Shown here: positions 22,754 through 34,317 of the stretch, piece after piece | How positions within the stretch are numbered: the stretch's first letter is position 1 | How the letters are laid out: the number at the start of each line of letters is the position of its first letter | NCBI GenBank assembly: GCA_024398075.1 | Contig: JAKSJM010000022.1 | Location: 1 to 42,488 of the forward strand | From: Bacteroidales bacterium | GTDB lineage: Bacteria; Bacteroidota; Bacteroidia; Bacteroidales; UBA932 | Length of the DNA: 42,488 bases | Reading direction: 5' to 3' | Program-made: the position numbers and the translations under genes | The notes under the pieces: model-generated | The model's database searches: none | What the model was told of the DNA's origin: nothing | What the model saw: only the letters and a program-made list of their open reading frames with translations

Positions 22754-24754
22754 ATGGCAAGGAAGAAAATTTACCAGACGGACACATACCTCGCCCCATA
22801 CAAGGAGGCGATCGAGGCCCGTCACGCGAACATTGAGGCGGCTTTCAAGGAGATGTCTCACGAAGGCTCGCTCTCCAGGGGCATCAATAACCATCTGTAC
22901 TACGGCTTGCATCGTACGGCCGATGGTTGGGTTTTCCGTGAGTGGGCTCCTAATGCCACTAAAATCTACCTCATAGGCGACTTCAACATGTGGCGTCGTA
23001 CTGAAGGGTTCGCTCTTCATCCTATAGGTGGTGGAAACTGGGAGATCACCCTTCCTAAGATGTTCCTGTCTCATGGCGACCTCTACAAGCTGTTCATAGA
23101 GTGGCCGGGAGGCGGTGGCGAGAGGCTTCCGGCATACACGCAGCGTGCCGTTCAGGATGACGAGACGAAGCAGTTCTGTGCCCAGGTGTGGGATCCGAAA
23201 CCTTACGAGTGGAAGCATAGACGACCTGGAAAGCGCAAGAACCCTCTCATCTATGAGTGCCACATCGGTATGAGCAGCGAGGAGTATAAGGTGGCGTCGT
23301 TCAATGATTTCCGCCAGAATGTGCTGCCTCGTGTACATAAGCTTGGGTACAATGTGATCCAGATTATGGCACTCCAGGAGCATCCTTACTACGGCTCTTT
23401 CGGATATCAGGTGTCAAACTTTTTCGCCCTCTCCAGTCGCTTCGGTACTCCGGAGGAGTTCAAGCAGCTGGTGGACGAGGCGCACAAGTTCGGCATCGCT
23501 GTGGTGATGGACATTGTCCACTCACACAGCGTGGAGAACGAAGCCGAGGGACTCGGCCTCTTCGATGGACGCGAGGACGATATGTACTTCTACGACGGCT
23601 GGCAGGGACATCACCCGGCTTGGGGTTCACGCTGCTTCAACTATGGTAAGCCTGAGACTCGTGCGTTCCTTCTGTCTAACTGCAAGTTCTGGATGGAGGA
23701 GTACCATCTCGACGGCTTCCGCTTCGACGGTGTGACCAGCATGATCTACTGGGACCATGGCCTAGGCAAGGACTTCACTGGTTATGACTGCTACTTCGGA
23801 AATGGCGTGGACGAAAGCGCCATCACATACCTTGCTCTCGCAAATATCCTTGTGCATGAGCTGAATCCAAATGCCCTCACCATCGCTGAGGACGTGAGCG
23901 GCCTTGCAGGCCTTGCCGCGCCTATCGCGCTCGGTGGAGTGGGCTTCGATTTCCGTATGTCAATGGGTGTGGCAGACCATTGGATCAAGTGGACGAAGGA
24001 ACTTACCGACGACCAGTGGAGCATGGGGGAGATTTGGTACGAGCTCACAAACAAGAGGGAGGATGAGAAGACGATCTCGTATGTGGAGTGTCATGATCAG
24101 GCGCTCGTGGGCGACAAGACCCTCATCTTCCGCCTCGTCGACAGTGAGATGTACTTCTCCATGAACAAGGGCTCGCAGAGTCTTATTGTTGACAGGGGAA
24201 TTGCCCTTCACAAGATGATTCGTCTCGCTACTTTGGGCACTGCTGGCGATGGCTACCTGAATTTCATGGGCAATGAGTTCGGCCATCCGGAGTGGATCGA
24301 TTTCCCTCGTCAGGGCAATGACTGGTCGTACGCGCATGCTCGCAGGCAGTGGTCGCTCGCGGACAATGGTTTCCTCAGATATGGCTGTCTTCAGGATTTT
24401 GATGAGGCCATGATACAGTTCATCCGCAAGAATGGACTGCTCAGCGAGAAACCTTCGCTGCTTGTCGCTGATGAGATAAAGAAAGTGTTGATTTTCAGCA
24501 GAAAAAATGTTATTTTTGCGCTGAATTTCCACCCTACAGAATCATTCGTGGATTATGAGTTCGCCGCGCCTGCTGGACGCTATGTGGTGGCCCTCGATTC
24601 CGACGAGAAGCAGTTCGACGGATTCTCACGAGTGAAGGCGGGTGAAGAACATTTTACTGCGCATAAGAAATGCGGGAATGGGCCTGAGTATCTAGAAGAC
24701 ACTCTGTCCCTTTATTTGCCTTCCCGCTGTGCTGTAGTGCTTGAAATGAAATAA
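22754..24754 (+). CDS. glgB: 1,4-alpha-glucan branching enzyme, eukaryote-type (GH13 subfamily 8)
   Basis: This 666-residue enzyme creates alpha-1,6 branches in glycogen. An N-terminal CBM48-like domain (FREWAPNATKIYLIGDFNMW) precedes the (beta/alpha)8 barrel. Catalytic residues are nucleophile D325 (FRFDGVTSM), acid/base E379 (TIAEDVSG) and the H447-D448 pair (VECHDQALVGDKT). The segments HDQALVGDKT, ALHKMIRLATLG and YLNFMGNEFGHPEWIDFPRQ match the eukaryotic branching-enzyme pattern, placing it in GH13_8 and not the usual bacterial GH13_9. It opens the glycogen part of the run, 8 nt after xseB and 12 nt before the debranching gene. Cytosolic. Confidence 0.95.
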   Translation: MARKKIYQTDTYLAPYKEAIEARHANIEAAFKEMSHEGSLSRGINNHLYYGLHRTADGWVFREWAPNATKIYLIGDFNMWRRTEGFALHPIGGGNWEITLPKMFLSHGDLYKLFIEWPGGGGERLPAYTQRAVQDDETKQFCAQVWDPKPYEWKHRRPGKRKNPLIYECHIGMSSEEYKVASFNDFRQNVLPRVHKLGYNVIQIMALQEHPYYGSFGYQVSNFFALSSRFGTPEEFKQLVDEAHKFGIAVVMDIVHSHSVENEAEGLGLFDGREDDMYFYDGWQGHHPAWGSRCFNYGKPETRAFLLSNCKFWMEEYHLDGFRFDGVTSMIYWDHGLGKDFTGYDCYFGNGVDESAITYLALANILVHELNPNALTIAEDVSGLAGLAAPIALGGVGFDFRMSMGVADHWIKWTKELTDDQWSMGEIWYELTNKREDEKTISYVECHDQALVGDKTLIFRLVDSEMYFSMNKGSQSLIVDRGIALHKMIRLATLGTAGDGYLNFMGNEFGHPEWIDFPRQGNDWSYAHARRQWSLADNGFLRYGCLQDFDEAMIQFIRKNGLLSEKPSLLVADEIKKVLIFSRKNVIFALNFHPTESFVDYEFAAPAGRYVVALDSDEKQFDGFSRVKAGEEHFTAHKKCGNGPEYLEDTLSLYLPSRCAVVLEMK

Positions 24755-24766
24755 TTATTACAGAAT

Positions 24767-26701
24767 ATGGCATATTTGAAATTTAACAAGTCTGAGCTTG
24801 TGAACCTGTCTTATTCGCTCAAGAGAGAGATTCTCTGCGCGAACAAGATCGGTGCTTATGTAAACACAAGTATCGTGACCTGTAACACCAGACGTTATCA
24901 TGGCCTGCTGGCTGTGACACTCGATCGTTTCGGTGGTGACAAGTACCTGCTTTTGTCATCTCTCGATGAGAGCCTCATCGTGAATGGCAAGCAGTTCAAC
25001 CTTGGCATCCATAACTATGGTGGAGTGTATGAGCCACGTGGACACAAGTATGTGGTGGACTATCAGGCAGACCCTGTACACAAGATTACTTACAAGGTCG
25101 GCAGTATCGTCTTCACCAAGAGCATTATTCTTGTACCTGATGCTGACCAGGTCCTCATCAAGTACGATCTCGTAGAGGCTCCTGCAAAGGCTACCCTTCA
25201 GCTGAAGCCTTTCCTCGCATTCAGAAACATTCACGCTCTTACTCATCAGAATCCTGAAGCAAACACATCCGCTACAGACATACAGAACGGTGTGTCATTC
25301 AGAATGTACGAGCAGTTCCCTGATCTCGCGCTCCAGCTTAGCACCAAGTCATCCACTTTCAAGTCAAACCCTTACTGGTACAACGGCATCACTTACTCTG
25401 ACGAGTATCGCCGTGGCTTCGACTGTGTGGAGGACCTCTTCGTGCCAGGATACTTCGAGGTAGATATGAAGCCAGGCGAGAGCATCGTATTCTCTGCATC
25501 CAAGGGAGTGAAGAACGCTACCACCATCAAGCGCAAGTTCAATGACCTTGAGGCCAAGTCACCTGAAATCTCCAGTGACCTTGACCAGCTCATCCGCTGT
25601 GCAGACACTCTTGTGAGCGAGCATAATAACAGGATGAAGATCAATGCTGGCTTCTCATGGATGTTCACCGGTCTTCTCCGCGAGACACTCATCGCCCTTC
25701 CTGGACTTACCCTGTACGCAGGCAAGCCAGAGCAGTTCGAGGAGATACTTGACAACCTCATCGAGGACAACCAGGAGCGCTTCTACAAGAGAACCACTCA
25801 GGTGGAGTCTCCTATCTATATCGCGTCCATCCTTCAGAAGTACATTGATTTCGGCGCAGATCCAAAGCATGTTTGGAAGAAGTACGGCGAGGTCGTGAAG
25901 GGTGTGATAGAGAGCTATTCTCCTGGCGTCAGAAAGGAAGTGTCCATGCAGCCTAATGGTCTTCTCTGGGCTCAGATGTATCGCACCGCCACATCTTGGA
26001 TGAATGCATACATAAACGGCGAACCTGTCACGGAACGTGCTGGATACCAGGTGGAGACAAATGCTTTCTGGTATAACACCCTCTGCTTCGCCATCGAGAT
26101 GGAGTCTAAGTATGGAAAGAAGAACAGTCCATTCTGCGCTAAGTGGTCGCCTATCCGTGACCTCGTGAAGCAGAACTATCAGCCTACCTTCTGGAATGAG
26201 AGGATGAAGTGCCTCGCTGACTATGTGGATGGCAACGGCCAGCACGTAGACATCAGACCTAATCAGATGGTGGCTGTCAGCCAGAAATATTGCCCAGTAG
26301 ATGAGGATGTGATGGTAGCAGTGCTCGCTATCTGCGACCGTGACCTTGTGACTCGCCGTGGTATTCGTACACTCTCTCCAAGAGATGTTCGTTACAAGGG
26401 GCAGTATGCAGGTTCACAGCACGAGCGCGATCTCGCATATCATCAGGGTAGCACCAGACCATTCCTTCTGAGCAGCTATGCTGACCTCTGTTTCCGTGTG
26501 AAGGGCCCTTCTTTCCAGAACAAGGTGAAGTGGCTTACTGAGGGTTTCTTCGCAGACCTCGCAGACCACGGTGTGGGCGCATTCTCTGAGCTTTACGACG
26601 CAGATCCACCTCATGAGCCACATGGAGCCATCTCTTCAGCACTCAGCACTGCGGCTCTTCTCGAGGTATACTATCTTATGAACAAATACAAGGAGGACTA
26701 G
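24767..26701 (+). CDS. glycogen debranching enzyme, archaeal/bacterial type (amylo-alpha-1,6-glucosidase, GH133)
   Basis: This 644-residue protein fits the two-domain GDE family: an N-terminal beta-rich domain with the hallmark CNTRRYHGLLAVTLDRFGGD, and a C-terminal (alpha/alpha)6 domain from about residue 280. Conserved segments there include SMQPNGLLWAQM, DIRPNQMVAVS, YKGQYAGSQHERDLAYHQGS and SELYDADPPHEPHGA. The enzyme should hydrolyse the alpha-1,6-linked glucose left at branch points, giving free glucose. No signal peptide, so it acts on cytosolic glycogen. It lies between the branching enzyme and a GT4 gene (4-nt gap) in the same run. Confidence 0.92.
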   Translation: MAYLKFNKSELVNLSYSLKREILCANKIGAYVNTSIVTCNTRRYHGLLAVTLDRFGGDKYLLLSSLDESLIVNGKQFNLGIHNYGGVYEPRGHKYVVDYQADPVHKITYKVGSIVFTKSIILVPDADQVLIKYDLVEAPAKATLQLKPFLAFRNIHALTHQNPEANTSATDIQNGVSFRMYEQFPDLALQLSTKSSTFKSNPYWYNGITYSDEYRRGFDCVEDLFVPGYFEVDMKPGESIVFSASKGVKNATTIKRKFNDLEAKSPEISSDLDQLIRCADTLVSEHNNRMKINAGFSWMFTGLLRETLIALPGLTLYAGKPEQFEEILDNLIEDNQERFYKRTTQVESPIYIASILQKYIDFGADPKHVWKKYGEVVKGVIESYSPGVRKEVSMQPNGLLWAQMYRTATSWMNAYINGEPVTERAGYQVETNAFWYNTLCFAIEMESKYGKKNSPFCAKWSPIRDLVKQNYQPTFWNERMKCLADYVDGNGQHVDIRPNQMVAVSQKYCPVDEDVMVAVLAICDRDLVTRRGIRTLSPRDVRYKGQYAGSQHERDLAYHQGSTRPFLLSSYADLCFRVKGPSFQNKVKWLTEGFFADLADHGVGAFSELYDADPPHEPHGAISSALSTAALLEVYYLMNKYKED

Positions 26702-26705
26702 GGAT

Positions 26706-27995
26706 ATGAGAGTTTTGATGTTCGGATGGGAATTCCCTCCACATATCGCAGGTGGTCTTGGAACTGCTTGTGAGGGAATTGTAAAGGGATTGGCATATAA
26801 TGGAGTGGAGACACTCTTCGTCATGCCTTCGGCTTCTGGTGATGAGGATCAGTCTGCTACCACTATCATCAACGCAAGCGATGTGGCTGTAGACACCATC
26901 AGCGAGAGCACCGAGGATTACCTCGAGAAGGTCAAGTTCATTCACGTGGGATCAAATATGATCCCTTACGTAGGTGTAGATGATTTCCAGAACGTAGTGG
27001 AGGAGGAGCGTCGCCGTCAGGTGAAGGACTTCAGCATCCAGTACGGCCAGAAATATAAGTTCTCAGGCAAGTATGGCACGAACCTCATGGAAGAGGTGGC
27101 GCGCTACGCGCTTGTGGGCGGTACCATTGCCATGCAGCATAAGGATGAGTTTGACGTCATCCACGCACATGACTGGCTCACCTATCTTGCAGGTATCGCA
27201 GCCAAGCAGCTTACCGGCAAGCCATTGGTAGTACAGGTTCATGCTACATCATACGACCGTGGCGATGAAAAGCACATTGACACCCGTGTTCTCGATATCG
27301 AGACCAAGGGCATGCTCGCTGCGGATCGCGTGGTTACAGTGAGTGACCTTACCAGAAACATTGTCATAAACAAATATGGAATCGACCCTGCCAAGGTAGT
27401 TACAGTGCACAATGCTGTCGACTTCAGTGGCAAGCAGAATATCACGGTCGAGAGGGGAGTCCAGGACAAGGTGGTCACCTTCCTTGGCCGTATCACCTTC
27501 CAGAAGGGTCCGGAGTACTTCATCGAGGCAGCTGCGAAGGTCCTCAAGCGTACAAAGAATGTACGCTTCGTCATGGCCGGAAGTGGTGATATGATGAATC
27601 GCTGCATCCGCATGGTCGCTCGTATGGGCATCTCGGATAAGTTCCACTTTACAGGCTTCCTTCGTGGAATGGACGTGCAGAAGATGTTCGCCCTTTCAGA
27701 TGTATACGTGATGCCTTCAGTGTCAGAGCCATTCGGAATCTCGCCTCTCGAGGCGATGAGGACAAATGTACCTTCAGTCATCTCGAAGCAGTCGGGTGCC
27801 GCTGAGGTGCTCAAGTACGCATTCAAGGTGGACTTCTGGGATGTCGACGCCATGGCGGATGACATCTACGCACTCCTCCAGTACCCTGCACTTGCCAAGT
27901 TCTCGGCTTGCGAGGGACTTGATGAGGTGAATGCTCTCAAGTGGAACGGGGCGACAGCGAAGCTCAAGAAAGTTTATGAATCAGTAGTAAAATAA
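26706..27995 (+). CDS. GT4 family glycosyltransferase of the glycogen cluster
   Basis: This 429-residue GT-B enzyme begins VLMFGWEFPPHIAGGLGTAC, a glycogen-synthase-like opening with the GGLG donor loop, and continues with HAHDWLTYLAGIAAKQLTGK, VVQVHATSYDRGDE and the donor site SVSEPFGISPLEAMRTNVPS, whose E-x7-E pair marks retaining GT4/GT5 enzymes. It could be a second glucan synthase or a chain-initiating or maltooligosaccharide-forming transferase; sequence alone does not settle donor or acceptor. The trio of debranching enzyme, GT4 and GH57 amylase is, from memory, a conserved Bacteroidota arrangement. It is 4 nt after the debranching gene and 15 nt before the GH57 gene. Confidence 0.85.
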   Translation: MRVLMFGWEFPPHIAGGLGTACEGIVKGLAYNGVETLFVMPSASGDEDQSATTIINASDVAVDTISESTEDYLEKVKFIHVGSNMIPYVGVDDFQNVVEEERRRQVKDFSIQYGQKYKFSGKYGTNLMEEVARYALVGGTIAMQHKDEFDVIHAHDWLTYLAGIAAKQLTGKPLVVQVHATSYDRGDEKHIDTRVLDIETKGMLAADRVVTVSDLTRNIVINKYGIDPAKVVTVHNAVDFSGKQNITVERGVQDKVVTFLGRITFQKGPEYFIEAAAKVLKRTKNVRFVMAGSGDMMNRCIRMVARMGISDKFHFTGFLRGMDVQKMFALSDVYVMPSVSEPFGISPLEAMRTNVPSVISKQSGAAEVLKYAFKVDFWDVDAMADDIYALLQYPALAKFSACEGLDEVNALKWNGATAKLKKVYESVVK

Positions 27996-28010: not shown

Positions 28011-29189
28011 ATGAAGAAAAATATTTGTCTGTACTTCCATGTACATCAGCCAACAAGGCTTAGACTTTACAGATTCTTCGATATCGGCAAGGACTCTCAC
28101 TATTACGATGACTTTGCGAACAGGACTATCCTTCATCGTATTGCTCAGAAGTGCTATCTTCCTATGAATGAGCTCCTTCTCGATGCTATCAAGGCTACTA
28201 AGGGCGCTTTCAAGGTGTCATTCTCGATCACGGGTTCTGCCATTGAGCAGTTCGATCGTTATGCACCAGAAGTGCTTGATTCATTCAAGCAGCTCGCTGA
28301 CACAGGATGTGTGGAGTTTGTGTGTGAGACATACAATCACTCACTCGCTTCTCTCGCATCTCCTGCAGAGTTCCGTCATCAGGTACTCAAGCAGAAGGAG
28401 ACTCTCCAGAAGTATTTCGGAGTGGAGCCTAAGGCTTTCAGAAACACTGAGCTCATTTACTCTGATGCCATAGGAAAGGAGGTTTATGATCTCGGCTTCA
28501 AGACTATCCTTACAGAGGGCGCAAAGCACATCCTTGGATGGAAGAGTCCTGACTATGTATACTCAAATCCTCTTCAGCCTAAGCTCAAGCTTCTCCTTAG
28601 AAACTATGTGCTGAGTGATGATATCGCTTTCCGTTTTGCTGACCACGGCTTTGATGCAGATACATTTGTGGGCTGGCTCAAGCAGACTGAGGGAGATGTG
28701 ATCAACCTCTTCATGGATTATGAGACTTTCGGTGAGCATCAGAGCGTAAATACAGGTATCTTCGACTTCATGAAGGCACTTCCTGCAAAGGTTGTTGCTG
28801 ACAAGGAGCTTGCTTTTGCCACTCCTTCAGATGTGGCTCGCAAGTGCAAGTCAGTAGGCGAGCTCCCAGTTCCAGAGCCAATCTCATGGGCAGACGAGGA
28901 GCGTGATACCTCTGCATGGCTTGGAAATGAGCTTCAGCAGGATGCATTCAACAAGATCTATGCTCTCACCGAGCAGCTCTCTATCCTTGACCAGCCAAAC
29001 CTCTGGAATGACTTCGGTCACCTTCAGGAGAGTGATCACCTCTACTACATGTGCACAAAGTTCTTCTCTGACGGAGAGATCCACAAGAGATTCAATCCAT
29101 ATGATACTCCATACGAGGCGTTCATCAACTTCATGAATGTACTCAGTGACTTCGCTATCCGTGTGGAGAACGCATTGTCAGAGAAGTAA
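28011..29189 (+). CDS. GH57 family alpha-amylase/glucanotransferase
   Basis: This 392-residue protein is a compact GH57 enzyme. The conserved regions are HVHQP at 10-14, CETYNHSLASL near 105-115, AFRNTELIYSD with the presumed nucleophile E147, and LFMDYETFGEHQ with the presumed acid/base D236. The final region WNDFGHLQESDHLYYM lies in the C-terminal helical part. Family members cut or rearrange alpha-1,4 glucans, and some form branches; this length and motif set match the cytosolic Bacteroidota alpha-amylase type. No signal peptide. Its stop overlaps the next start (TAATG), coupling it to the fused synthase/phosphorylase. Confidence 0.9.
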   Translation: MKKNICLYFHVHQPTRLRLYRFFDIGKDSHYYDDFANRTILHRIAQKCYLPMNELLLDAIKATKGAFKVSFSITGSAIEQFDRYAPEVLDSFKQLADTGCVEFVCETYNHSLASLASPAEFRHQVLKQKETLQKYFGVEPKAFRNTELIYSDAIGKEVYDLGFKTILTEGAKHILGWKSPDYVYSNPLQPKLKLLLRNYVLSDDIAFRFADHGFDADTFVGWLKQTEGDVINLFMDYETFGEHQSVNTGIFDFMKALPAKVVADKELAFATPSDVARKCKSVGELPVPEPISWADEERDTSAWLGNELQQDAFNKIYALTEQLSILDQPNLWNDFGHLQESDHLYYMCTKFFSDGEIHKRFNPYDTPYEAFINFMNVLSDFAIRVENALSEK

Positions 29190-32100
29190 TGGGAGATATC
29201 AAGCCAGAACTTTTGCGCCCGGACTATCTCTTTGAGGTAAGCTGGGAGGTGTGCAACAAGATGGGTGGCATCTACACTGTAGTGGCTACCAAGGCACTTT
29301 TCCTCCAGTCTCAGCTCAGAAGACGCCACATCCTGATAGGACCGGACGTATGGATGCATACGGCGGCAAATCCAGATTTTATCGAGGATCCTACCCTTTA
29401 TAAGGCATGGAGGCAGAAGGCGGCCAGCGAGGGACTCAGAGTCCGTATAGGACGCTGGAATATTCCAGGTAAGCCCACAGCTATCCTCGTGGATTTCAAG
29501 CAGTTCATATCTGTGCAGGACGATATTCTTGCGCGGCTGTGGAACCGTTTCGGAGTGGATTCACTCACTGGAAACTGGGACTACAAGGAGTCTGCTCTCT
29601 TCGGATATGTCGCAGGAAAGGTAATTGAGAGTTTCAGGAACTTTAACCTTGAGCCTAACGAGAAGGTAGTGGCTCAGTTCCATGAGTGGCAGTGTGGAGC
29701 AGGTCTTCTCTATATAAAGGAGAAGGAACTGCCTATCGCTACCGTGTTCACTACACACGCGACCATGATGGGGCGCTGCATCTGTGGCCATGGCATGCCA
29801 CTGTATGATGCGCTCAAGAACTACGATGCGAATAGACTTGCTCAGGAATTTGGCGTGGTGGCTATCAATTCCCTTGAGACCAAGTCGGCACTGAATGCAG
29901 ATGTTCTCACCACCGTGAGTGACATCACGGCACGTGAGTGCGAGCAGTTCTATGGAAGGCCAGTGGATGTCGTTACCCCCAATGGTTTCGAGGACAGCTT
30001 TACACCATCAACTACTGCTGAATGGGAGGCGAAGAAGGGTACCGCGAGGAAGAAGCTTATGACAGTGGCGTCAGCCATGTCAGGCAAGCAGCTTCCGAAG
30101 GATGCATTCCTTCTCGGTATCGGTGGTCGTTACGAGTATCATAACAAGGGTATCGATGTGCTTATCGATGCTCTTGCTGAGCTGAAGAATTCAGGCTATG
30201 ACGGCCCGGAAGTTCATGCCTTCATCATGATCCCTGGTGGTCACAATGGCCCAGACAAGAATCTCCTTGCGCGCCTGTCAAATGCAGGCGCTGGAAATTA
30301 TACCACCCAGTGCTCGCATTATCTGATGAATCCAGAGTGGGATACCATCTCACGCAGGTTCGCGGAGGTGGGTCTCTACAATCAGCCTGATGACAAGGTC
30401 AAGATTTACTTTGTGCCTTCTTACCTGAATGGCAATGATGGCATTTTCAACATGTCGTACTACGACTTGCTGATAGGCCTTGACCTTACTGCTTTCCCTT
30501 CATACTATGAGCCTTGGGGCTATACTCCTCTTGAGAGCCTTGCGTTCTCGGTACCTACCCTTACCACATCTGTGGCCGGTTTCGGTCAGTGGGTCAAGGA
30601 CTACTACGAGGCAGAGCACCCTGGTATCACAGTAGTGGAAAGGGATGACAAGAATTATGACGAGGTAGTGTCAGCAGTGGCAGCTCGCGTGCGCGAGGTG
30701 GCCATGCTGGATGCCGAAGGCAGATCGGAATACACACGCTCGGCCAAGGACATTTCTACCATCGCTTTGTGGAAAAACCAGATTAAGTATTATAATGAGG
30801 CCTATTCGAAGGCCCTTGAAAAAGTAGTGTATCGCCTGGAGAATCTCCCGGCCCTTAAAGAACGAAAGACAATGTATAATCCTATTCAAGTAGACGCCCC
30901 TAGCTGGAAGAGCGTCATGGTGACTCGTCACCTCCCAGAGGCACTTTCTGGCCTCGAGACTCTTTGTAAGAACCTTTGGTGGTGCTGGAATGATTCAGCA
31001 AAGGCTCTTTTCAAGAGCATCGACCCTCAGATTTGGAGTTCATCAGGACACAATCCAATGGTGATTCTCGATACTGTAAGCATTAAGAAGTTCAAGGAAC
31101 TCGCCAAGGACAAGGATTTCCTTGCCCGCCTCGACGAGGTCATGAAGGAGTTCAACGCATATATGGCAGAGAAGGCCAATAGAACTGAGCCAAATGTCGC
31201 ATACTTCTGTATGGAGTATGGCCTTGACACCTCACTTAAGATCTATTCAGGCGGTCTCGGTATCCTCGCAGGTGATTATCTCAAGGAGACTTCAGACATG
31301 AACGTGAACCTCACCGCTATCGGTTTCCTCTACAGATATGGTTATTTCAATCAGCAGATTACAGCTTTTGGTGACCAGGTGGCTGACTACCAGCCAGTAG
31401 ATTTCCTCAAGACCCCAGCTCAGCCAGTAATGGAGGAGAATGGTGAGTGGGCTACCATCAGCGTGCCATTCCCTGGACGTACCGTGACTGCACGTATCTG
31501 GAAGGTGGCTGTTGGCCGTACAGACCTCTATCTGCTCGATACTGACTTCGAGGCTAATCTTCCTGAGGATCGCGTGATTACCCATCAGCTCTATGGTGGT
31601 GACTGGGAGAACAGACTCAAGCAGGAGATCCTTCTCGGTATCGGTGGTATCCGTGCCGTACGTAAGCTCGGTCTCACCCCTAAGATTTATCACTGCAACG
31701 AGGGACATGCCGCATTCACCGGTCTTGAGAGACTCCGTGAGTATGTAGAGCATGATAACCTTGACTTCAGCGAGGCTCTTGAGGTCGTAAGAGCTTCTTC
31801 ACTCTTCACTACCCATACTCCTGTACCTGCGGGTCACGATGCTTTCGATGAGGGTATGCTTCGCCAGTACATTGGCCATTATCCAGAGCGTCTCAAGGTG
31901 GATTGGGAGACCATGATGGCACTCGGTAAGGATCATCCTACCGACGTGAACGAGAAGTTCTCAATGAGTATTCTCGCCGCAAACTGCGCTCAGAATGTAA
32001 ATGGTGTGTCAATGCTTCACGGTCTCGTAAGCCAGGAGATCTTCGCTCACATGTATCCAGGTTACCTTCCAGAGGAGAACCATGTAAGCTATGTGACAAA

Positions 32101-33433
32101 TGGTGTTCACTATCCTACATGGTGCGCTAAGGAGTGGAAGGCTCTCCATGCCAAGGTATTCGGCCCAGAGTTCCAGACACATCACTACGACAAGAAGTGC
32201 TTCGAGGGTGTATACAATATCTCTGATGAGGAGGTATTCAATGTACGCAAGGTCCTCAAGGATGACCTTATCCTGAACATCAAGAAGAGAATTGCTGATA
32301 CTTCACTCGGAAACCACTATTCTCCACGCCAGATCGTGAAGATCAAGGAGGCTTTCCGTTCAGATGTGCTCACCATCGGTTTCGCTCGTCGTTTCGCTAC
32401 CTATAAGAGAGCTACACTTCTCTTCAGCGACCTTGACAGACTTGATGCTATCGTCAACAACCCTCAGCATCCAGTTCAGTTCGTATTCGCCGGTAAGGCT
32501 CACCCTGCAGACAAGGCAGGTCAGGACCTCATCAAGCAGATCATCGAGATCTCAAAGCAGGAGCGCTTCCTCGGAAAGATTGTCTTTGTTCCTGGATACG
32601 ACATCACCCTCGCGAAGAGACTCGTTCAGGGTGTGGATGTATGGCTTAACAACCCTACACGTCCTCAGGAGGCATCAGGTACCTCAGGAGAGAAGGCTTC
32701 AATGAATGGTGTAATGCATTTCTCAGTCCTCGATGGCTGGTGGGTTGAGGGTTATAAGGAAGGCGCAGGCTGGGCACTCCCACTCGAGCGCACTTATGAC
32801 GACCAGCACTACCAGAACGAGCTCGATGCAGCCACCATCTACGCGATCATCGAGAACGAGATCGCTCCAGCATTCTATGCGATCGACCCTGCTACAGGAC
32901 GTTCATCAAAGTGGATTGGCTACATCAAGAATACCATCGCTCAGGTAGCATGCAACTTCACTACAAACCGCATGCTCACCGACTACTGCGACCAGTACTA
33001 CGTACCTCAGAATGAGCGTACCGCTGCTATGGAGGCCAATGATTTCGCGCTCGCTCGTGAGATTTCTGCATGGAAGAAGAGAGTACGCCGCCAGTGGCAG
33101 AATGTAGAGGTGGTTTCATATACCCAGCCAGATTCTTCATACAGCCTCTCAGAGGAGAACAAGCTCAAGAGCGAGGTTGTCCTTAACATTGGCGAACTTC
33201 AGCCACAGGATCTCGGCGTGGAGATGCTCTTCACCGCTGCAGACAACAAGGGACAGTTCCACATCAAGGAGAAGGTGGAGTTTACACTCGCTGACTACTC
33301 AGACGGTGTGGCTCGCTTCACCGCAGATGTCCTCCCTGAGCGTACAGGTATGTATCAGGTGGCTACCCGTGTATATCCTAAGAACGAGAATCTTCCTCAT
33401 CGCCAGGACTTCGCTCTCGTTAAATGGCTGTAA
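29189..33433 (+). CDS. fused glycogen synthase (GT3) and alpha-glucan phosphorylase (GT35)
   Basis: This 1414-residue protein joins two opposing enzymes. Residues 1 to about 550 are a GT3 eukaryote-type glycogen synthase: FEVSWEVCNKMGGIYTVVAT, VAQFHEWQCGAGLLYIKEK, GRYEYHNKGIDVLI and the E-x7-E site PSYYEPWGYTPLES. From about 562 to the end is a short-type GT35 phosphorylase: NLWWCWNDSAKALF, YFCMEYGLDTSLKIYSGGLG, HCNEGHAAFTGLERL, TTHTPVPAGHDAF and the pyridoxal-phosphate lysine K1169 in GTSGEKASMNG. All expected catalytic motifs are visible in both halves. The frame runs through the join with no stop. An ATG at 30872 (codon 562) lies at the border. GT3 half: several CCG/CCC proline codons; GT35 half: I found no in-frame CCG by eye. 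The product presumably both extends glycogen from UDP-glucose and releases glucose 1-phosphate. The start overlaps the GH57 stop; ribF overlaps its end by 10 nt. Confidence 0.95.
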   Translation: MGDIKPELLRPDYLFEVSWEVCNKMGGIYTVVATKALFLQSQLRRRHILIGPDVWMHTAANPDFIEDPTLYKAWRQKAASEGLRVRIGRWNIPGKPTAILVDFKQFISVQDDILARLWNRFGVDSLTGNWDYKESALFGYVAGKVIESFRNFNLEPNEKVVAQFHEWQCGAGLLYIKEKELPIATVFTTHATMMGRCICGHGMPLYDALKNYDANRLAQEFGVVAINSLETKSALNADVLTTVSDITARECEQFYGRPVDVVTPNGFEDSFTPSTTAEWEAKKGTARKKLMTVASAMSGKQLPKDAFLLGIGGRYEYHNKGIDVLIDALAELKNSGYDGPEVHAFIMIPGGHNGPDKNLLARLSNAGAGNYTTQCSHYLMNPEWDTISRRFAEVGLYNQPDDKVKIYFVPSYLNGNDGIFNMSYYDLLIGLDLTAFPSYYEPWGYTPLESLAFSVPTLTTSVAGFGQWVKDYYEAEHPGITVVERDDKNYDEVVSAVAARVREVAMLDAEGRSEYTRSAKDISTIALWKNQIKYYNEAYSKALEKVVYRLENLPALKERKTMYNPIQVDAPSWKSVMVTRHLPEALSGLETLCKNLWWCWNDSAKALFKSIDPQIWSSSGHNPMVILDTVSIKKFKELAKDKDFLARLDEVMKEFNAYMAEKANRTEPNVAYFCMEYGLDTSLKIYSGGLGILAGDYLKETSDMNVNLTAIGFLYRYGYFNQQITAFGDQVADYQPVDFLKTPAQPVMEENGEWATISVPFPGRTVTARIWKVAVGRTDLYLLDTDFEANLPEDRVITHQLYGGDWENRLKQEILLGIGGIRAVRKLGLTPKIYHCNEGHAAFTGLERLREYVEHDNLDFSEALEVVRASSLFTTHTPVPAGHDAFDEGMLRQYIGHYPERLKVDWETMMALGKDHPTDVNEKFSMSILAANCAQNVNGVSMLHGLVSQEIFAHMYPGYLPEENHVSYVTNGVHYPTWCAKEWKALHAKVFGPEFQTHHYDKKCFEGVYNISDEEVFNVRKVLKDDLILNIKKRIADTSLGNHYSPRQIVKIKEAFRSDVLTIGFARRFATYKRATLLFSDLDRLDAIVNNPQHPVQFVFAGKAHPADKAGQDLIKQIIEISKQERFLGKIVFVPGYDITLAKRLVQGVDVWLNNPTRPQEASGTSGEKASMNGVMHFSVLDGWWVEGYKEGAGWALPLERTYDDQHYQNELDAATIYAIIENEIAPAFYAIDPATGRSSKWIGYIKNTIAQVACNFTTNRMLTDYCDQYYVPQNERTAAMEANDFALAREISAWKKRVRRQWQNVEVVSYTQPDSSYSLSEENKLKSEVVLNIGELQPQDLGVEMLFTAADNKGQFHIKEKVEFTLADYSDGVARFTADVLPERTGMYQVATRVYPKNENLPHRQDFALVKWL

Positions 33434-34317
33434 TAGCTACAGGCTTTTTCGACGGAGTTCATGCTGGACACCGTTTAGTGATCGATACTCTCATCTCCGA
33501 AGCCAAGAGGCTCGGAGAGGAGAGTATGGTCATTACATTCTGGCCCCATCCTCGCACAGTGTTGCAGAATGGTGCCCGTGAGTTGCGTCTGCTCACCTCA
33601 CTTGGAGAAAAGAAGGCGCTTCTTCACTCTATGGGAGTCGATAGGGTGGAGGTTCTTGATTTTACCAAGGAATTCAGCCATTTGACGGCTGAGCAGTACC
33701 TTCGCGACATAGTGAAGGCTAGACTCGGAGGCTCGACCATTGTCCTGGGCTATGACAATAGAATGGGCTCGGACGGCCTCACGCGAGACGCCATAATCCC
33801 CCTGGCGGAATCGCTGGGTCTGCGTGTCATCGGCACGCCGGCCATCCTCTCAAGCGACCAGTCGTTCACAGTCAGCTCCACCAAGGTTCGCGAGGCCCTG
33901 CAGGAGGGACGTGTGGATGATGCTGGCCGTATGCTGGGCTACCGCTATGTCCTCCATGGTGTGGTCGTGGCGGGAAACCAGTTGGGAAGGACACTTGGCT
34001 ATCCTACGGCCAATATGAAGCTTTATGAACCCCTGAAGCTCATTCCAAAGAATGGAGTGTATCTTGTGGAGGTGGAAACGATTGGAAATCACTACTATGG
34101 CATGTGCAACATAGGCGTGCGTCCGACTGTTTCCGCGTCATTGGAGAGGACTCTTGAGACTCATATATTTGATTTTGATGAGTTGATATATGGCCTTGAC
34201 ATCAGGATTTCCTTTGTGAAGAGAATCAGGGACGAGAAGCGTTTCTCTTCGCTTGACGAGCTAAAGGCTCAGCTGGCAGATGATGAACGCATTTCTAGGC
34301 AAAATTTGACGAGATAA
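33424..34317 (+). CDS. ribF: bifunctional riboflavin kinase / FAD synthetase
   Basis: This 297-residue enzyme makes FMN from riboflavin and then FAD. The N-terminal nucleotidyltransferase domain has the HxGH-type motif GFFDGVHAGH and, further on, SSTKVREAL. The kinase domain starts near residue 185 and contains GRTLGYPTANMKL and NGVYLVEVE, with GMCNIGVRPTV and LETHIFDFD. Its ATG lies inside the last codons of the phosphorylase (10-nt overlap, different frame), so it must be read from the same mRNA as the glycogen genes. The opening MAVIATGFFDGVH is slightly shorter than in many RibF proteins but complete in its motif. Confidence 0.94.
   Translation: MAVIATGFFDGVHAGHRLVIDTLISEAKRLGEESMVITFWPHPRTVLQNGARELRLLTSLGEKKALLHSMGVDRVEVLDFTKEFSHLTAEQYLRDIVKARLGGSTIVLGYDNRMGSDGLTRDAIIPLAESLGLRVIGTPAILSSDQSFTVSSTKVREALQEGRVDDAGRMLGYRYVLHGVVVAGNQLGRTLGYPTANMKLYEPLKLIPKNGVYLVEVETIGNHYYGMCNIGVRPTVSASLERTLETHIFDFDELIYGLDIRISFVKRIRDEKRFSSLDELKAQLADDERISRQNLTR

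Follow-up and report, generated by a model that had tools for sequence, protein, structure and literature searches.

A Conserved Translation-Start Signature at the Joint of a Fused Glycogen Synthase-Phosphorylase Gene in Bacteroidales, and a Predicted Second Product

The Fused Gene and Its Domains

We examined a stretch of 42,488 nucleotides from a gut bacterium of the Bacteroidales (assembly GCA_024398075.1, contig JAKSJM010000022.1; hereafter the window), in which a glycogen synthase of family GT3 and a phosphorylase of family GT35 are encoded as one protein. The fused gene is a member of a glycogen operon with the order branching enzyme, debranching enzyme, GT4, GH57, and fusion, after which comes RibF (Table 1). 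The window genome (G000) is a metagenome-assembled genome (MAG) of 2.49 Mb that is 82% complete, and its genus is probably Candidatus Cryptobacteroides. At the joint between the two halves lies a start codon, the ATG of Met562, whose conservation and surroundings point to a second product of the same gene, a free phosphorylase. This predicted product is our main subject.

Table 1. Positions of the fused gene, its parts, and its neighbors in the window
Feature	Positions	Strand	Remarks
Fused GT3-DUF3417-GT35 open reading frame	29189..33433	+	1414 aa/codons, no internal stop
GT3 glycogen synthase half, linker included (codons 1-561)	29189..30871	+	PF05693, 1.1e-92; phmmer
E-x7-E (E441, E449), EPWGYTPLE	30509..30535	+	Invariant in 124/124 fused genes
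Linker codons directly 5' of Met562, proposed internal-start leader	30851..30871	+	A at 10/21 in the window gene
ATG of Met562 (codon 562), proposed internal translation start	30872..30874	+	Start codon in linker of 123/124 fused congeners
Phosphorylase module	30872..33433	+	853 aa if Met562 is the start
DUF3417 domain	30932..31237	+	Pfam match
Pyridoxal phosphate (PLP)-binding lysine K1169	32693..32695	+	Invariant in 124/124 fused genes
GlgB-like branching enzyme (alpha-amylase domain, CBM48)	22754..24754	+	Under NCBIfam GlgB cut-offs
Glycogen debranching enzyme (GDE_N, GDE_C)	24767..26701	+	Pfam
GT4-type glycosyltransferase	26706..27995	+	Retained in synthase-less species too
GH57 enzyme	28011..29189	+	Stop shares one base with fusion start
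RibF (FAD synthetase/riboflavin kinase)	33424..34317	+	Start overlaps last codons of fusion

A preliminary description of this DNA had proposed a single uninterrupted frame carrying both enzymes, and translation together with Pfam and NCBIfam searches confirms it. In the Pfam search with the fused protein, Glycogen_syn (PF05693) matches residues 16-350 and a second stretch, DUF3417 matches residues 582-683 (E 8.2e-35), and Phosphorylase (PF00343) matches residues 834-1187 (E 2.6e-30). The NCBIfam model TIGR02094 scores 808 bits against a cut-off of 191.7, which places the second half in the GT35 alpha-glucan phosphorylase family; the model for Thermococcales maltodextrin phosphorylase, NF041129, reaches 725.6 bits and stays under its 1500-bit cut-off. 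Against the sequences of solved structures, the synthase half gives phmmer alignments to glycogen synthases of human and yeast, each split into two parts (E 1e-74 to 2e-71), and residues 568-1414 match a stand-alone phosphorylase (9l6i and 20yr; 964 and 963 bits) over nearly its full length.

Residue conservation was followed in 124 fused rows, made up of 68 rows from the genus and 59 distinct loci from named assemblies, less three loci (L230, L231, and L235, at ~61% identity) that were taken as a sister group. The 59 loci come from the best 80 of 593 matches, 21 of the 80 being identical over the compared part to existing rows; one row, L232, has a stop within the extracted stretch and was retained. 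The E-x7-E donor site and K1169, both named in the preliminary description, hold up in every one of the 124, as do the other listed GT3 core motif residues, in keeping with GT3 membership. Equally invariant is the motif ARRFATYKR, which contains the phosphate-site arginine and lysine. With catalytic and neighboring motif residues invariant throughout, both halves look catalytically intact.

In eukaryotic GT3 enzymes a cluster of arginines senses glucose 6-phosphate, a regulatory trait that family membership does not require; about one in six of these arginines is kept in the window protein (RRxRxxxRNRxxR aligned with AExRxxxTRSxxD). Membership of GT3 suggests UDP-glucose-dependent synthesis. 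No glgC scores over the curated cut-off in the window genome, 82% complete as it is, which fits the use of UDP-glucose without showing it; galU is likewise under its cut-off there. UDPGP (PF01704) has no match in the window genome and none in the controls, and is hence uninformative.

How Common the Fusion Is

A complete match to the fused protein is present in 17 further congeners (L003-L019; 61 genomes), in frames of 1398-1422 codons. These lengths are our own counts from stop to stop, an open-frame listing that reads through some stops having been set aside. A locus in a MAG from horse feces (L199, among the best 80 of 593 matches) carries the fusion at 95% identity. The incompleteness of the window MAG is what might favor a frameshift or a chimeric assembly as the origin of the fusion; the occurrence of the same frame in many independent assemblies refutes this explanation, to which we give practically no credence.

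The preliminary description had regarded the two enzymes as usually separate and had proposed a search for the taxonomic spread of chains with both domains. They are fused beyond the genus as well. We compared 24 genomes of the order that belong to other families: the fusion is present in 17, five have GT3 and GT35 in adjacent separate frames (G038, G054, G056, G058, and G060), G040 has the phosphorylase alone, and G046 gives no match. Separate enzymes are thus not the usual state in this order at least.

With both domains in one chain, the window protein is a fusion of the type of K16153, "glycogen phosphorylase/synthase", whose members we take to be GT3-GT35 chains. K16153 appears in a table of PMC8307300 (EC 2.4.1.1, 2.4.1.11), which bears out the earlier suspicion that chains of this fused type are annotated elsewhere, and it stands among the synthesis enzymes used in PMC11093988. 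Since the fusion is common in the order and K16153 exists, it is known in kind; we rejected it as a novelty in itself, and the new part is the start signature at the joint. The pertinent passages of a review (PMC11046441) treat Bacteroidetes GT3 enzymes and their possible transfer from DPANN archaea, and a fusion is not mentioned in them. In open-licence literature we found no described GT3-GT35 fusion, no "alpha-glucan family phosphorylase" in a Bacteroid context, and no internal initiation at a glycogen phosphorylase.

A Start Codon in the Linker

When fused and free proteins are aligned, the ATG of codon 562 sits at or near the point where free-standing phosphorylases begin; the peptide that starts there reads MYNPIQVDAPSWK. 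In the 68 fused rows of the genus this column holds ATG in 65, GTG in two, and ATT in one, and many linker positions vary. A start codon occurs in the linker of 123 of the 124 fused genes (121 ATG and two GTG). Six genes of one group (L112, L184, L196, L200, L225, and L234) have isoleucine (ATT, ATC, or ATA) in the Met column; in all six an ATG follows three codons further on, as though the start had shifted. The distance to a conserved tryptophan is 12 residues in 110 of 123 fused genes and 11 in the window gene. Two of the three sister-group loci also have a linker ATG.

Initiation Signals Around the Joint

Shine-Dalgarno sequences are missing in members of the Bacteroidetes, and strong initiation in Flavobacterium johnsoniae is associated with adenines at -3, -6, -12, and -13 and with little structure between -20 and +20, according to passages of PMC6847099. 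We looked at the joint in 48 fused representatives with pairwise identity under 85% (median amino-acid identity 71%). Adenine shares are 0.88 at -6, 0.85 at -8, and 0.83 at -5 and -11, with 0.62 at -3, 0.52 at -12, and 0.48 at -13; the background of the gene is 0.26 at first, 0.34 at second, and 0.10 at third codon positions.

The excess extends to synonymous sites. Of the Lys, Glu, and Gln codons at -8 to -1 of the joint (n = 205), a share of 0.693 end in A, where 0.245 would be expected, and this span ranks second of 904 offsets along the gene, the first being one codon away. Such codons are numerous enough for comparison in 264 alignment columns, of which those with the three largest A excesses are offsets -8, -6, and -5. 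Four of the top ten columns are at the joint, two are near the gene start (residues 7 and 20), and one is at residue 1412, where RibF starts.

Low structure is found at the joint as well. The folding energy of a 42-base window centered on it is -1.23 kcal/mol, while synonymous recodings of the window come to -3.24 kcal/mol, and the joint ranks first of 57 positions both by plain energy and by the synonymous comparison. In GT4, GH57, and GH133 of congeners (up to 50 per gene), none of 269 windows reaches either value. In 42 of the 48 representatives, the window gene included, the joint belongs to the 5% of the gene with the least structure.

A start-site model was trained on the starts of GT4, GH133, GH57, and RibF, with the fusion gene kept outside the training. 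Its mean percentile for the joint, among internal ATGs of other genes, is 0.989, compared with 0.974 for the fusion's own start (n = 122), 0.912 for the starts of free phosphorylases (n = 39 of 40), and 0.542 for other in-frame ATGs of fused genes. Out of about 30 in-frame ATGs in each gene, the joint scores highest in 105 of 123. On left-out genes the model gives 0.999 for both GT4 and GH133. The joint thus combines a conserved start codon with an initiation context inside an open frame, which by sequence makes it a candidate internal in-frame start.

The 17 fused genes of other families show no excess of low structure over synonymous recodings: the value at the joint is -0.60, rank 42 of 57, and a linker ATG is present in five of them, at scattered places. 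The synonymous signal therefore belongs to the genus and not to the fusion, or to linkers, in general. These same genes bear on the alternative of a plain fusion, in which only the 1414-residue chain is made, at 1:1, and Met562 with its A-rich linker is a conserved flexible peptide. A gene of that kind would agree with the single open frame, with a linker motif M-x-Y-x-K that is kept in most of the 68 rows, and with the other families, where fusion is the rule and carries no synonymous start signal. The signal in the genus, at synonymous sites and in folding, persists when the protein is held fixed; a peptide motif accounts for part of the conservation of Met562 and does not predict that signal, and we regard a single product as rather unlikely.

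A free phosphorylase might also be translated from a transcript of its own, with a promoter inside the GT3 half and Met562 as its start. This alternative overlaps with internal initiation on the long transcript and differs from it only in the step that is controlled. A transcript arising inside GT3 would share the initiation signal at the joint. Across the 48 representatives, the promoter consensus TAnnTTTG has no match within 400 bases ahead of the joint and four elsewhere in the genes, a weak test; we think a separate promoter improbable.

Species Without the Synthase Half

Among 121 genomes of the genus, the window's included, the phosphorylase is present in 117 and the GT3 domain in 72; for the 53 genomes with completeness of 90% or more and contamination of 5% or less, the counts are 52 and 41. 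Five genomes (G003, G020, G093, G139, and G142) have broken frames; every other GT3 match over the cut-off sits in a frame of 1398-1446 codons, so that a separate GT3 gene is not seen in the genus. In the GT3-less loci examined, a phosphorylase frame, of 850-872 codons where complete, comes immediately after GH57, and the operon is otherwise collinear.

In a tree of GT4, GH57, and GT35, the trait changes at least six times, and well-supported branches force at least four changes. The tree holds 108 genus rows (68 fused, 40 with the phosphorylase alone) and seven outgroup rows; of the 117 genomes with a phosphorylase, ten with an incomplete match were excluded, and G102 contributed two loci, giving 108 rows from 107 genomes. 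A second tree by a better method, made from 50 hand-chosen rows of the 115, has seven changes, at least four of them forced. G144 and G126 fall inside fused groups with support of 96 and 100 in the first tree and 98 and 99 in the second; the placement of G010 and G098 is unresolved in the trees. Because the outgroup rows are fused, we read the changes as losses of the synthase half; the counts themselves are silent on their direction, and the base of the genus is unresolved.

The synthase-less species also lend some weight to a reading of the start as a fossil: the fusion of two separate genes took place in the genus ancestor, and decay has yet to erase the former start of the phosphorylase. 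Such species are among the deep branches of the genus in the first tree, and adjacent separate GT3 and GT35 frames occur in five of the 24 genomes from other families. Yet at a median identity of 71%, with third bases near saturation, 123 of 124 linkers still hold a start, and the six isoleucine genes each have an ATG nearby, all of which makes a fossil start very improbable.

The starts of the free phosphorylases (n = 40) are close to the column of Met562. A Met stands exactly 12 residues before the conserved Trp in 12 of them and 9-11 before it in most others; in three, the group G133, G035, and G111, it stands seven before, and in one there is none within the stretch examined. Outside the large synthase-less clade, the distance is 12 in G010, G098, and G144, and 13 in G126. 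These positions would fit a deletion that ended before reaching a start which was then active.

Three synthase-less loci have longer gaps between GH57 and the phosphorylase: L026 (G023) with 232 bases, L138 (G144) with 96, and L115 (G126) with 63. The gaps are possibly deletion scars; by tblastn, at the thresholds applied, no GT3 remnant was found in them. In another synthase-less congener (G070:C162:3031-5562) one TAA falls within the phosphorylase match. A second, distant relative of the phosphorylase, with 27% identity in a frame of 766 residues, was seen at G008:C18:1180-2181. The GT4 of the operon is 72-89% identical among full-length matches in the genus (homologs in L022-L036 and L062-L156), and this enzyme may act as an additional or substitute glucan synthase.

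One Gene, Two Products

We consider it probable that the gene yields two products, the fusion and a free phosphorylase from the internal start. Ribosomes that start at 29189 would make the bifunctional chain of 1414 residues, and those that start at the ATG at 30872 would make a free phosphorylase of 853 residues. Phosphorylase would then exceed synthase, by an amount set at the internal start, and a deletion of the synthase half would spare a functional gene for the phosphorylase; such deletions have seemingly occurred several times. This fuller account, of a two-product gene with an excess of phosphorylase whose internal start has repeatedly been reused as a gene start when the synthase was lost, we also hold to be likely, if a shade less firmly. 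The preliminary description had argued that the fusion fixes the two activities at 1:1; because the joint carries a conserved translation-start signature, the ratio is probably not fixed, and a free phosphorylase is probably made as well. The preliminary description further proposed that both activities would be placed on the same particle of glycogen and that metabolites or allostery would direct the flux.

Several observations weigh against internal initiation. L220 alone among the 124 genes has no ATG or GTG in the linker, with ACG at the column; it is counted in the 124, is unscored in the start model and the Met-Trp distances (n = 123), and is not among the 48 representatives. Tyr at +2 (63 of 68 fused rows) and Lys at +4 (57 of 68) form a peptide motif that could explain part of the conservation of the Met. 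Three of the top ten columns in A excess lie elsewhere and are unexplained (residues 89, 1187, and 1191). On left-out genes the start model is near chance for RibF (0.562) and reaches 0.909 for GH57, and it scores the window's own joint at 0.968, under the group mean of 0.989. Since the species are related, the counts are inflated and the standard errors in the folding comparison are too small. Third bases are incompletely saturated (0.707 shared against 0.638 expected), and the exact distance of 12 residues is seen in only 12 of the 40 free phosphorylases. By plain folding energy the joint of the other-family fusions ranks tenth of 57 and is itself fairly unstructured.

The fusion of opposed enzymes is usually read as a way of fixing their ratio, and here one partner is seemingly also made alone. 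If this is true, the ratio of synthase to phosphorylase could be tuned at translation, and this in a phylum without Shine-Dalgarno use. Related species offer a natural comparison between those with the fusion and those whose operon is collinear but for the missing synthase half. Annotation limited to a single start for each frame would overlook the second product.

Comparison with Known Systems

The synthase half shares the motifs E-x7-E, FHEW, THAT, and RYE..NKG with the human muscle GT3 enzyme and yeast Gsy2, which differ from it in having the full regulatory arginine cluster. Alpha-glucan phosphorylases of solved structure (9l6i, 9ma8, 20yr, and others) match residues 568-1414; they are stand-alone chains, whereas the window module is fused. 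K16153 resembles the window protein in bringing both activities into one protein class, and an internal start is not described for it in the parts of the sources cited above. The nearest likeness in mechanism is to Cas11b, produced from cas8b, where one frame gives two products and the C-terminal part is also made alone, from an internal Met (as set out in part of PMC11899642). Those proteins are archaeal and unrelated, and for the second product the authors report experimental proof there, while here it is predicted.

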